Below, piece by piece: positions 40,937 through 47,069 of a stretch of DNA of 64,000 nucleotides. Each line of letters starts with the position of its first letter. Position 1 is the first letter of the stretch. The position numbers and the translations under genes are program-made. Under the pieces are notes generated by a model that was not told the DNA's origin, ran no database searches, and was given only the letters and a program-made list of their open reading frames with translations. Origin of the DNA: Chlorobiaceae bacterium (GTDB lineage Bacteria > Bacteroidota > Chlorobiia > Chlorobiales > Chlorobiaceae); contig JAAXXI010000001.1 in NCBI GenBank assembly GCA_013334565.1, positions 1 through 64,000 on the forward strand, given 5' to 3'.

Positions 40937-42361
40937 ATGAGCATAACACCGGAAGCACTCAACCACCTTCTCGGCATTCATCCTGAAACCCCTCTCGATA
41001 TCGACGGCATGTGCCGGAGGCTCAGGCCGGTCATCTACCCGGCGCCACAACTCACGGAACGCCTCGATGCCTTCTGCACCGCACTGTGCTCCGCATTTCG
41101 CTCGCTGGGCATACCGACGCCCGGCAGGGATGAGGCAACCGGCAGCGACGGACGCTTTCCGCCGGGAACGGTTATTTTCGCCCCAGGCCATTTTCCGGAT
41201 GACAAGCTCGCCATAAACCGTGTTTCGACGCTCTACAACAACATCATTGTCGGGATCTATGATGAGGAGCCACCGCTCGACAGCAGTTCTCTGCCGCAGG
41301 AACGCCTTGATGCCATCGTTTCGAGGCTGGCAAGGGACATGGTGCATATCCTGGTTTTCGTAACCGCTCGATCCTGGACAGTCTGCACCATGAACGGAGG
41401 CGTGGCGACGTTCGACTCCCCTCTGCCGTCCGTGGAGGATGTCAGAAATATCCTCGTGCCGAAAATTTCCGCGCAGGTCGTTCCGCCGGGACCCGACGAT
41501 ATCGACATGGAACACGGCACGCTCGATACCGGAACAGAGGAGTTCAGGGAGATCGCCAACGATTTCATCCGGTGCAGCGCGCTCTGGAAAAACAATCAAT
41601 GCCTCGTAACCCACACATCGACCGAAGGGCTGGAGTACCGCAACGGCTTTTACCGGCGCATCGTCGCCCGTTACCTCGACCGGCGAAGCGGCATGAGCTA
41701 CGGCTTCTTTGCGCGCCAGCGCCCCCTTGGCGTCACGCCTGCGCTTCATGAACGCCCGCCGGAAAATGACCGTCCGGCCGTCACATTGCTGACGGTGCAC
41801 CTCCAGGGTCGGACCCTGCATGTTCCGGTACCGACAGTCAGCGTCATCACGACACGATCGGGATGCAGGAAACACCTGCTCGATCCTGAAAACGATCTCG
41901 TTGAAATAGGGCTTACCCAGGGAAGACCATGGATGCGGACCCCCGGAAATACAGAAGGGAACCATGACGCCAGACCTTCTTTCGACACCCTGACCATTCT
42001 TGCCCATGCTCTCGGGAACGCCGTTGCGGCAAGTATTCTGAAAACGCTCAGCCCCGGTTCGGAATTTCCGGTACATCTCGAAAGGAACGGCGCATCCATG
42101 ACCCACTGGCATGATTATCCGTCCGACGAACTGCTTCCGAAGGGGTACCACGGACACGGCAGGAGGAACCCGCCCGTATCGTGCTCCACCCCCCAGTCTG
42201 CGGCGTACAGCCTGATGGGCAAGATCGCCGCACTGGAAAAAGCCCTGTCGGAGGGAAAGGAATACCGGGGGGATGTGCATTTCGAACCGAACCACGGGAC
42301 CAACATCGTGGGCATGCTTTCGCTTGCCGAAACAGCGGCGGCGATGAACCCGCGCTGCTGA
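40937..42361 (+). CDS. Protein of unknown function downstream of nadK
   Basis: A 474-residue, probably soluble protein that I do not recognise. It starts 12 bases after nadK on the same strand, so it is probably cotranscribed. The product has ordinary composition, while the long antisense frame is Arg/Cys/His-rich and unlikely. No signal peptide, membrane segment or nucleotide motif was seen. A His-rich stretch MTHWHDYPSDELLPKGYHGH occurs near residue 395. Low-similarity enzyme families cannot be excluded. Confidence 0.7.
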   Translation: MSITPEALNHLLGIHPETPLDIDGMCRRLRPVIYPAPQLTERLDAFCTALCSAFRSLGIPTPGRDEATGSDGRFPPGTVIFAPGHFPDDKLAINRVSTLYNNIIVGIYDEEPPLDSSSLPQERLDAIVSRLARDMVHILVFVTARSWTVCTMNGGVATFDSPLPSVEDVRNILVPKISAQVVPPGPDDIDMEHGTLDTGTEEFREIANDFIRCSALWKNNQCLVTHTSTEGLEYRNGFYRRIVARYLDRRSGMSYGFFARQRPLGVTPALHERPPENDRPAVTLLTVHLQGRTLHVPVPTVSVITTRSGCRKHLLDPENDLVEIGLTQGRPWMRTPGNTEGNHDARPSFDTLTILAHALGNAVAASILKTLSPGSEFPVHLERNGASMTHWHDYPSDELLPKGYHGHGRRNPPVSCSTPQSAAYSLMGKIAALEKALSEGKEYRGDVHFEPNHGTNIVGMLSLAETAAAMNPRC

Positions 42362-42404: not shown

Positions 42405-42980
42405 TCAGGCCCCCTCCTGCACCTCTTCCGCATATGGCCATTTACCCTGGCGGGTAAGCAGCATTTCGACAATTTCCCTGATGCACCCTTTTCCACCCTC
42501 GAACCCGGAAATATATCCCACCCTGTTCCTCAGGTAGTCCGCCCCGTCGATCGGGGTTGCCGGAAATCCCGCCTTTTGCAGGACCTCGATATCATGGACG
42601 TCATCACCGATATAGGCGCACTCTTCATCGCCAAGGCTGCGGAACTGCCTGAACTCCTCGTAGGCGGCAAGCAGGTCCGGCTTTCCGAAATATAGATCGG
42701 TAATGCCGATCTCTTCCAGCATTGGCCGGTAACCGTCCGACTCCCTGTCCGACAGGACGGCGACATAAAGACCGTTCTTCAGTGCCTCCCTCAGTGCGAC
42801 CGCATCTCGGACCGACATGGAACAGAGCTCTTTTCCGCTGCTGTCACGGGTGATCCTTCCGCCGTTCAGCACGCCGTCAACGGGAAATACGAGGGCCCTG
42901 ACCATTTTCAGCGCCTGTTCGATCCTCGATGTAGGGTCGGCAATGGAGGGCTCCATGCCGAAATATTGAAATCCTGACAA
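42405..42980 (-). CDS. kdsC: KdsC-like HAD phosphatase lacking the catalytic aspartate
   Basis: A 191-residue protein colinear with 3-deoxy-D-manno-octulosonate 8-phosphate phosphatase, a C0-type HAD enzyme. GKELCSMSVRDAVALREALK, GITDLYFGKPD, AYIGDDVHD and GGKGCIREIVEMLL match KdsC. However, motif I, normally FDVDGV with the first Asp as the nucleophile, reads FPVDGV (Pro33; codon CCC). Motif II ITGRxS-like reads LSDRES. As written it should not form a phospho-aspartate. It is 12 bases after kdsA. Alternative start ATG 42956. It may be inactive, structural, or reliant on another phosphatase. Confidence 0.85.
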   Translation of the reverse strand: MSGFQYFGMEPSIADPTSRIEQALKMVRALVFPVDGVLNGGRITRDSSGKELCSMSVRDAVALREALKNGLYVAVLSDRESDGYRPMLEEIGITDLYFGKPDLLAAYEEFRQFRSLGDEECAYIGDDVHDIEVLQKAGFPATPIDGADYLRNRVGYISGFEGGKGCIREIVEMLLTRQGKWPYAEEVQEGA

Positions 42981-42992
42981 ATTTTCAGTTGT

Positions 42993-43823
42993 TTAACGTG
43001 ATTGAAGAGTCTGCACACACCGGTAAAGCTGCAGCAGTTGTTTGACAATCGAACCGAAATCGCCGAGCGCAATCTGGACGGCCGCATCGGAAAGGGCTTT
43101 CAACGGATCGGGATGGACCTCGAAAAAGAGGCCGTTCACCCCTGCGGCAACCGCAGCCTTTGCCAGAGGGAGCACATACTGGCGCTCTCCTCCGGATACG
43201 CCGCCGCCGGAACCTGGAAGCTGGAGGCTGTGGGTGGCATCGTATAGTACGGGGTATCCCGATTCCGTCATTTTGACGACCCCCCTGAAATCCACAACGA
43301 GGTTATGGTAACCGAAACTCGATCCCCTTTCGGTCAGCAGGATCTTCCGGTTGCCGGTCTCCGCCACCTTCATCGCCGCAAGCGCCATATCTTCCGGCGC
43401 CATGAACTGCCCCTTCTTGATGTTCACGGCAAGGCCGCTTTCCCCTGCGGCAACGAGCAGGTCGGTCTGGCGACAGAGAAATGCAGGTATCTGCAGGAGA
43501 TCGACAAAGCGTGAAGCGAGCGCGACCTCTTTCGTTTCATGTACATCGGTCGTCACCGGCATGCCATAAGCCTCCCTCACGGCGGCAAGTACTTCCAGCG
43601 CTTCGGTATCGCCGATCCCCTTGAACGACGTCCCGGAAGAACGGTTCGCCTTCCTGTAGGACCCCTTGAAAATGAAGCGCACCCCAAGTTCCCGACTTAT
43701 GCGATCGAGCTCTCCGGCAATTTCAAAGGCCATCGCCCGGTTTTCGATAACACAGGGTCCGGCAATCAGGAGCGGAACATTTTCATCAGGCACCGACAAG
43801 GGGCCGAGAGAGAACTTTTGCAC
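42993..43823 (-). CDS. kdsA: KDO-8-phosphate synthase
   Basis: A 276-residue Kds[81 protein letters not shown], and a C-terminal FFEVHPDP. It condenses PEP and arabinose-5-phosphate to KDO-8-phosphate for lipopolysaccharide. kdsC follows after 12 bases in one operon. It is divergent from the short clpB gene, with 120 bases between. Confidence 0.97.
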
Positions 43824-43943: not shown

Positions 43944-45266
43944 ATGAGTACCGCCGATACGAAACTACGACTTGAAGAGATAGAAAAACAGCTTGCCAAC
44001 CTTGCCGAGGAACAGAGGGTGATCAAGGCGAAATGGGATGGGGAAAAGGAGCTTATCAAAGGTTCACGCGATCTCCAGTCCCAGCTTGAACAGCTCAGGG
44101 TTCAGGCGGAAGAGTACGAACGCCAGGGGGACTACGGCAAGGTCGCCGAGATCCGCTACGGAAAAACCGTACAGATCGAGCGTGAGCTCGAGGAAAACCG
44201 GAAAAAAATCGAGGAGAAGAAAACGGCCGGCGACCTCATCATGAAAGAGGAGATCGATGCGGAGGATATCGCCGACATCGTTTCGAAATGGACCGGCATC
44301 CCGGTCAGCAAGATGCTGCAGTCCGAACGCCAGAAGCTGCTGCACATCGAAGAGGAGCTGCACCGCCGCGTGATCGGACAGGACGAAGCCGTGAACGCCG
44401 TCAGCGAAGCGGTCAAACGCTCTCGTGCAGGTATGGGCGACGAAAAGCGCCCGATAGGCTCGTTCATCTTTCTCGGACCTACGGGTGTCGGGAAAACCGA
44501 GCTTGCAAGGACGCTCGCCGAGTACCTCTTCGACGACGAAGATGCGCTGGTCCGCATCGACATGAGCGAATACATGGAATCACACACCGTGAGCAGGCTC
44601 GTAGGAGCACCTCCCGGCTATATCGGCTACGAGGAGGGCGGACAGCTCACCGAGGCCGTCCGGCGCAAGCCGTTCTGCGTGCTGCTGCTCGACGAGATCG
44701 AGAAAGCGCATCCCGACGTGTTCAACATCCTGCTGCAGATCCTCGACGACGGGCGCCTGACCGACAGCAAGGGGCACACGGTCAATTTCAAGAACTGCAT
44801 CATCATCATGACCAGCAACATCGGCGCCCAGCTCATCCAGGCGGAGATGGAGAAAATCGACGGAGAGGACCGCGAATCCGTTCTTTCCGGCCTGCAGGAC
44901 AAGCTTTTCCAGCTCCTCAAGCAGAAGGTTCGCCCCGAGTTCCTGAACCGCATCGACGAAGTCATCCTCTTCACACCGCTGACAAAAGCAGACCTGAAAA
45001 AGATCGTCCTGATCCAGTTCAACCGTATCAGTTCAACGGCACAGCGCCAGCACATCAGCCTCACGATTACCGACGAGGCGGCAGAGTGGCTCTCCAATGC
45101 GGGATTCGACCCGGCATTCGGCGCCAGGCCTCTCAAACGGGTCATGCAGCGTAAAATCACCAACAGGATTTCGGAGCTTATCCTCTCCGGCGAGGTGCAG
45201 GAAGGCGACAGCGTATCCGTCGAGCTTGAAAAGGGCGAGCTCACCCTGAAGAAAACTGCCGTTTAA
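43944..45266 (+). CDS. Half-length ClpB: M-domain plus second AAA+ module only
   Basis: A 440-residue protein matching only the C-terminal half of ClpB. It begins within the coiled-coil M-domain ([19 protein letters not shown]), then [19 protein letters not shown], Walker A GPTGVGKT (178-185), pore loop GYIGYEEGG, Walker [22 protein letters not shown], and the C-terminal small domain. Full ClpB is about 860 residues; the N-domain and NBD1 are absent. The upstream 120 bases hold no remnant of them, so it is a stand-alone gene, not a frameshifted one. A disaggregase or unfoldase role, or partnership with a full ClpB, is inferred. Confidence 0.9.
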
Positions 45267-46443: not shown

Positions 46444-46857
46444 TCATTTGATCAGGGTCGGCTCAGGCGGTTTTGGCGGCTCGGGCTGCGGATTCAGCCA
46501 CAGTTTCGCATCGGGAGCAAGCGGTGCGGGCGGCTCGGGTTGCGGGTTCAGCCACAGTTTCGCGTCGGGAGCAAGCGGTGCGGGCGGCTCGGGTTGCGGG
46601 TTCAGCCACAGTTTCGCGTCGGGAGCAAGCGGTGCGGGCGGCTCGGGTTGCGGGTTCAGCCAGTTTCTGCCGCCCCGGTGGTGCTTCACCTGCCTTTTTG
46701 GCGCAAGCGGTTTCTGGACAGTCGATGTTGTTTCAACAGGCTTCGAAACGGTTTCCGTCTTTCCCGAAGATTGTACCGGACCCGCCGCATAAGAGGTCCC
46801 GCAAGACATTGCCATTGCAGCAAGCACTGCAAAACCTGCAACTGAATTGTTCATCAT
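46444..46857 (-). CDS. Exported proline-rich repeat protein
   Basis: A 137-residue protein from ATG 46857 (ribosome site GGAGAA). It has a signal peptide (MNNSVAGFAVLAAMAMSCGT, with the AYA-like SYA site) and then three full plus one partial 18-residue repeats, WLNPQPEPPAPLAPDAKL. A basic patch KRQVKHHRGGRN lies before the repeats. The repeats are likely to be extended and to act at the cell surface or in the periplasm. No family is recognised. A frame to 46905 is longer but less likely. Confidence 0.75.
   Translation of the reverse strand: MMNNSVAGFAVLAAMAMSCGTSYAAGPVQSSGKTETVSKPVETTSTVQKPLAPKRQVKHHRGGRNWLNPQPEPPAPLAPDAKLWLNPQPEPPAPLAPDAKLWLNPQPEPPAPLAPDAKLWLNPQPEPPKPPEPTLIK
46475..46664. 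repeat. 54-bp in-frame tandem repeat
   Basis: Units begin with GGCGGCTCGGG at 46475, 46529, 46583 and 46637, so the period is exactly 54 bases; the fourth is partial. Copies differ at only a few bases, which points to recent expansion. It encodes the 18-residue repeat of the exported protein. Confidence 0.92.
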
Positions 46858-47069
46858 TGAATGTTCTCCGTTTGTTTCGAAAAGATTCGGAACTGCTGCC
46901 GGCAATGATCATGATACAGTAAATTGGACACTGAAAAAATCAGGGAGCCGGAAAAAGGTATCGGAATTTCACCCGAAAAGCATGATTGAAATTCAGGAAA
47001 GCCCTATCTTCCAATAATATAACCTGCTGCATGAAGAGCCGGGGAACGTAAAGATTATCTCATTTTCAG

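Follow-up and report, generated by a model that had tools for sequence, protein, structure and literature searches.

Chlorobiales KdsC proteins without the nucleophile aspartate: a probable pseudophosphatase family retained beside kdsA

In HAD chemistry, the first Asp of motif I forms the phospho-enzyme and also binds Mg. The described C0-type HAD proteins closest to the one considered here are the KDO8P phosphatase KdsC, known from E. coli (YrbI; 3hyc/2r8e) and Bacteroides (4hgn), and the KDN-9-phosphate phosphatase BT1713 (3e81). A further relative, the C-domain of the vertebrate CMP-sialic acid synthetase, is a KdsC-like HAD that is reported to lack phosphatase activity and to assemble into tetramers (PMC8636478). 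The literature searched, which was open-access only, held no earlier description of a nucleophile-less KdsC from the Chlorobiales, nor were Chlorobium essential-gene data found in it. Such a protein is encoded in the window analyzed here, a stretch of 64,000 nucleotides at the start of a contig from a Chlorobiaceae genome of 2.35 Mb in 91 contigs (86.8% complete).

The gene occupies positions 42405..42980 on the reverse strand and encodes 191 aa from a TTG start codon (42978-42980), whose position is conserved in the Chlorobiaceae loci printed for comparison, with TTG used nearly always and GTG once. This start lies 12 bp beyond the stop of the gene immediately upstream, kdsA, the gene for KDO8P synthase (42993..43823, reverse strand), whose product exceeds the cut-offs of both TIGR01362 (347.6 bits) and NF003543 (370 bits). 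The window protein is recognized by the TIGR01670 profile of the YrbI subfamily (118.6 bits, cut-off 106.95) and falls short of NF007019, the catalytic KdsC equivalog (112.5 bits against a cut-off of 208), although this failure alone is not decisive, as an Asp-bearing orthologue discussed below (L049) also stays under that cut-off at 138.8 bits. Its AF2 model (pLDDT 89.4, pTM 0.85) displays the HAD C0 fold of the solved KdsC structures, the best solved Foldseek matches being E. coli KdsC 3hyc (TMq 0.84) and BtKdsC 4hgn (TMt 0.92), with E ~1e-19. Common descent with known KdsC is recovered in a 72-protein tree, where the window clade is sister to the Bacteroidota KdsC proteins, including Bacteroides 4hgn (support 100/96). 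The protein is KdsC by descent and by fold, not by catalytic definition. The tree topology needs two changes between Asp and non-Asp; a single clade of all nucleophile-less proteins is not rejected (AU p 0.446), and on these grounds a single loss of the nucleophile is possible. A third, very divergent C0-like HAD with a very long tree branch was seen in one genome (L230:1952-2500, in G007 at G007:C46:153049-153483), and divergent third matches to TIGR01670, all weak, occur in a few other genomes.

Motif I (LVFPVDGVLNGG) reads FPVDGV, with Pro33 at the nucleophile position; its CCC codon (42882..42884, reverse strand, as for all residues below) is conserved in other assemblies, and the replacement of Asp by Pro requires two base changes. 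The sequence-only reading of this DNA had recognized the replacement, which the ORF and the alignments confirm, and had named the correct codon while placing it a few bases off, at about 42887-42889. It had also called motif II (LSDRES) unusual, which holds only in part: Ser is an accepted residue in HAD motif II, and in Ser77-Asp-Arg79 (42744..42752) the Arg matches the TGR Arg of E. coli KdsC and is present in 91/91 nucleophile-less proteins. Two further losses were absent from that reading. The expected motif III Lys is replaced by Leu103 (42672..42674), at a position where the sister families f2, f3 and f4 keep Lys and where all members of the Chlorobiaceae (f1) seen have lost it, carrying Leu, Pro, Phe or Arg. 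The substrate-side Arg of the C0 family (Arg64 of BT1713) is replaced by Met87 (42720..42722), in a column that holds Arg in all 41 TGE-type paralogues described below and in 20 of the 22 other Asp-bearing proteins, and mostly Leu, Met or Val in the nucleophile-less ones. Other elements are kept, namely Asp35, the second, acid/base Asp of motif I (42876..42878), the motif IV dyad Asp126-Asp127 within GDDVHD (42600..42605), Arg58-Asp59, and G162, G163, G165, C166 and R168 of the C-terminal GGKGCIRE element (42474..42497), all of them invariant in the Chlorobiaceae (81/81). Measured against a catalytic KdsC, the window protein has the motif II Thr/Ser (Ser77) and the motif IV Asp dyad, and lacks both the motif I Asp and the motif III Lys.

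As the first HAD Asp is both the nucleophile and a Mg ligand, catalysis by the HAD route is excluded for the window protein, and the residue pattern indicates that it is very probably catalytically inactive. One could still envisage hydrolysis of KDO8P without a covalent aspartyl-phosphate, for instance by a general-base attack of water through Asp35 or motif IV, and the invariance of Asp35, the Asp dyad, Arg79 and GGxGCxRE, like the persistence of the gene with kdsA, would be in keeping with such chemistry. We consider this quite improbable, given the established part of the missing Asp in the mechanism, the additional loss of the motif III Lys and the substrate-side Arg, and the occupancy of the nucleophile position by Pro, Ala, Val, Ser, Thr or Asn, a choice too free for a reinvented active site. 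Nevertheless, the retention of the motif IV dyad and of the motif II Arg in an apparently inactive protein could mean that ligand binding or some residual chemistry is still selected.

The loss extends far beyond the window. A separately assembled MAG of an uncultured Chlorobiaceae bacterium (L083) encodes a protein with 98% identity and the identical CCC codon, at 11 nucleotide differences over 573. Across 81 Chlorobiaceae sequences, a set that includes the window and holds a few species twice via two collections, the nucleophile position is Pro in 64, Ser in 16, Ala in one and Asp in none. The sister families within the Chlorobiales have Thr, Asn, Ser or Val, and the sole Chlorobiales orthologue with Asp is that of ES-bin-17 (L049/L146). 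Among 156 distinct C0-type proteins, the 91 without Asp all fall in the Chlorobiales KdsC clade (P 65, S 17, N 4, T 3, V 1, A 1), one is truncated and 64 bear Asp; 41 of these 64 are TGE-type paralogues. Most of them come from the same genomes, so that they control internally for sequencing error. A base-call error at the Pro33 codon, in favor of which nothing can be cited beyond the window being a single sequence, is rejected by the identical codon in L083 and the non-Asp residues throughout the other Chlorobiaceae assemblies, and its probability is practically negligible. The sequence-only reading had asked whether Pro is lineage-wide and had named a sequencing error, or Asp-bearing orthologues together with an active second copy, as refutations. 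Pro or another non-Asp residue proves to be lineage-wide, so that the first of these fails, and Asp-bearing orthologues amount to one in the order. The order Chlorobiales, ES-bin-17 excepted, has lost the nucleophile Asp and kept the fold, motif IV, the motif II Arg and the GGxGCxRE element.

These proteins can be arranged in a pseudoenzyme series that runs from the intact Asp of ES-bin-17, through f2/f3, where the nucleophile is gone and the Lys and Arg are kept, to the Chlorobiaceae, where all three are gone. Along this series, a distinctive N-terminal motif is present wherever the nucleophile has been lost. In the window protein, it takes the form of a conserved extension (MSGFQYFGMEPSIADPTS; 42927..42980, reverse strand) with the motif FQYFGMxPSxADP, predicted to be flexible: the AF2 model has low pLDDT within residues 1-14, of which 1-5 and 10-14 are flexible. 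Residues 2-18 rank with the best-conserved positions of the protein, and Q5, F7, G8, P11, A14, D15 and P16 do not vary in any of the 81 Chlorobiaceae sequences. A related motif, [ED][FLI][FLM]G[IVM], is found in every f2/f3 member; neither the Asp-bearing L049 nor the outgroups showed such a motif, which is confined to nucleophile-less members. Because the peptide is conserved, flexible and co-occurs with the catalytic loss, we infer that it resembles a docking motif.

The dN/dS of pseudo-kdsC against its four nearest orthologues is 0.065-0.16, within the range of kdsA and nadK, and the gene order clpB-kdsA-kdsC is preserved wherever a Chlorobiaceae contig covers the region. These values and the adjacency to kdsA bear out the earlier remark that the gene, intact beside kdsA, is not an obvious pseudogene; together with the N-terminal motif, they point to a selected pseudoenzyme. 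The stepwise decay of three active-site positions, the nucleophile first in f2/f3 and then the Lys and Arg in f1, might alternatively be ascribed to a functionless relic retained by chance or through its place in the operon. However, with a dN/dS this low, a gene that is unbroken in all kdsA-containing Chlorobiaceae genomes, and a conserved N-terminal motif gained rather than lost, we regard a relic as very improbable. Three genomes (G020, G026, G066) have a match neither to pseudo-kdsC nor to kdsA, consistent with an assembly gap that spans both genes. In some f2 genomes, kdsA and kdsC lie ~7 kb apart or further, and the linkage to kdsA could simply be an operon order that was inherited. A single frame joining kdsA and pseudo-kdsC (about 475-479 aa in L111/L026; L111:5155-6579, forward strand) was considered as Rosetta-stone evidence and rejected: it occurs in one species only, the reading frame shifts within a T/A run close to the end of kdsA and thereby replaces the KdsA C-terminus, and the fusion is probably an assembly error.

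Other genes of the region also drew attention. Convergent with pseudo-kdsC lies a gene for a 474-aa protein (40937-42361, forward strand), which is ~53-75% identical across the Chlorobiaceae with a dN/dS of ~0.15 and has no Pfam or NCBIfam match. On the other side, kdsA is adjoined across the family by a gene for a 440-aa ClpB (43944-45266, forward strand) consisting only of the second AAA domain and the D2-small domain, without the N-terminal half. Further along, a 153-aa protein (46444-46905, reverse strand) comprises four near-identical tandem repeats of the WLNPQPEPPAPLAPDAK type and has no Pfam match.

The source genome contains kdsD, kdsA, kdsB and waaA; for Chlorobaculum tepidum, HPLC has shown Kdo itself (PMC12285230). 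With the pathway genes present and Kdo measured in that relative, another KDO8P phosphatase must act. The sequence-only reading had offered a choice between a different KDO8P phosphatase and a non-catalytic role for this protein; both halves are supported and probably hold at once: the HAD nucleophile mechanism is closed to the window protein, and removal of the phosphate from KDO8P must fall to a different enzyme. The search for a second KdsC that it recommended recovered one more strong C0 HAD in the same genome, a TGE-type paralogue with all HAD motifs complete (G000:C23, L058:7032-7559). This second copy scores higher with the KDN9P phosphatase model NF058599 (142.2 bits, below its cut-off of 180) than with the KdsC model (125 bits), and in the 72-protein tree it groups with the KDN9P phosphatase 3e81 (support 88/98). 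All members of the TGE group (41/41) combine complete HAD motifs with Glu56, Arg64 and Lys67 (BT1713 numbering), which are associated with KDN9P specificity; this role was taken in part from the variant structures 4hgq/4hgr, which were included in the alignment of these positions. Moreover, in most Chlorobiales, as in f5, the TGE-type HAD has a short neuB for its neighbor. Its partner in the locus above (L058:6072-6941, reverse strand) is a 289-aa NeuB-like synthase, with 73-89% identity among most Chlorobiales and f5, in which no C-terminal SAF domain was detected. The tree, the specificity residues and the neuB linkage rule out that the second copy is simply another KdsC. The second of the named refutations therefore applies only by half: a catalytically complete C0 HAD was found, of KDN9P type, and a second KdsC was not.

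Judged by sequence, this paralogue is the leading candidate for having taken over KDO8P hydrolysis, with chances slightly better than even; its three KDN9P-specificity residues and its coupling to neuB make its use on KDO8P a guess. Double use of the paralogue is favored because it is absent from ES-bin-17 (G039), the only Asp-bearing Chlorobiales genome, and because it is the sole type of C0 HAD found, with two protein queries, in an f5 genome (G049) that has kdsA and strong kdsB-like matches. In one genome (G023, 91% complete), the pseudo-KdsC is present and the paralogue was not detected, probably because of an assembly gap. The consistent specificity residues and the neighboring neuB would also suit a paralogue devoted, with neuB, to nonulosonate (sialic-acid-like) synthesis only, the pseudophosphatase being real and KDO8P being cleaved by a non-homologous or broad-specificity phosphatase. 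Relatives indeed have further CTP_transf_3 genes besides kdsB, for a total of two or more (the incomplete source genome yielded one, kdsB). In E. coli, kdsC insertions are tolerated when lptC is expressed (PMC5821084), suggesting that background phosphatases can suffice. Against this stand the gene complement of G049 and the lack of the paralogue in the Asp-keeping ES-bin-17, and we consider a non-homologous or broad-specificity phosphatase rather unlikely.

Taken as a whole, we find it fairly probable that Chlorobiales KdsC is a pseudophosphatase that was replaced by a paralogue and has assumed a non-catalytic partner role. An ancestral KdsC of the Bacteroidota/Chlorobiota type would have turned into a pseudophosphatase along the line common to the Chlorobiales, after or excepting the ES-bin-17 lineage, and KDO8P would be hydrolyzed by another enzyme, most likely the KDN9P-type paralogue, with activity toward C8 as well as C9 ulosonate phosphates. 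The KdsC shell would persist as a subunit without catalytic function, probably in the form of a tetrameric scaffold or lid, that may dock on KdsA, or on the active paralogue, via the FQYFGMxPSxADP peptide, and so might stabilize or regulate KdsA or hand on KDO8P. By analogy, our best guess is a partner or scaffold role, most likely with KdsA; that the partner is KdsA rather than the paralogue or nothing is a tentative proposition, somewhat short of even. The most specific version, in which KdsA has the dead KdsC as an obligate subunit for regulation or scaffolding, attached via the new N-terminal motif, and a KDN9P-type phosphatase was recruited order-wide for both KDO8P and nonulosonate-9-phosphate, appears doubtful; if true, the LPS and nonulosonate pathways would share one phosphatase. 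More generally, annotation by TIGR01670 calls this gene the KDO8P phosphatase of green sulfur bacteria, a function that the alignment denies it, at least as far as the known mechanism goes. This leaves a hole in Kdo synthesis, a core outer-membrane pathway, throughout an order, with the product chemically detected and the TGE-type paralogue as one candidate to fill it.

In comparison with known systems, the window protein shares with KdsC its fold, kdsA neighborhood, motif II Arg, motif IV and C-terminal GGxGxxRE, as well as its tree position beside the Bacteroidota representatives. It differs from them in lacking the nucleophile Asp and, in the Chlorobiaceae, also the motif III Lys and the substrate-side Arg, in the added N-terminal motif and in its score below the NCBIfam KdsC equivalog cut-off. 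BT1713 belongs to the same HAD C0 family, and the second copy lies on its side of the tree; both keep all catalytic residues along with Glu56, Arg64 and Lys67, whereas the window protein has none of these three. The C-domain of the vertebrate CMP-sialic acid synthetase (3ewi) has in common with the window protein the KdsC-like HAD fold and a related ulosonate pathway, and by analogy we think that the window protein works like it. The vertebrate domain, however, is fused to a cytidylyltransferase, whereas the window protein is free-standing and bacterial and its gene adjoins kdsA. Such a free-standing bacterial counterpart of the animal domain would suggest that the KdsC fold has repeatedly become an oligomerization part.
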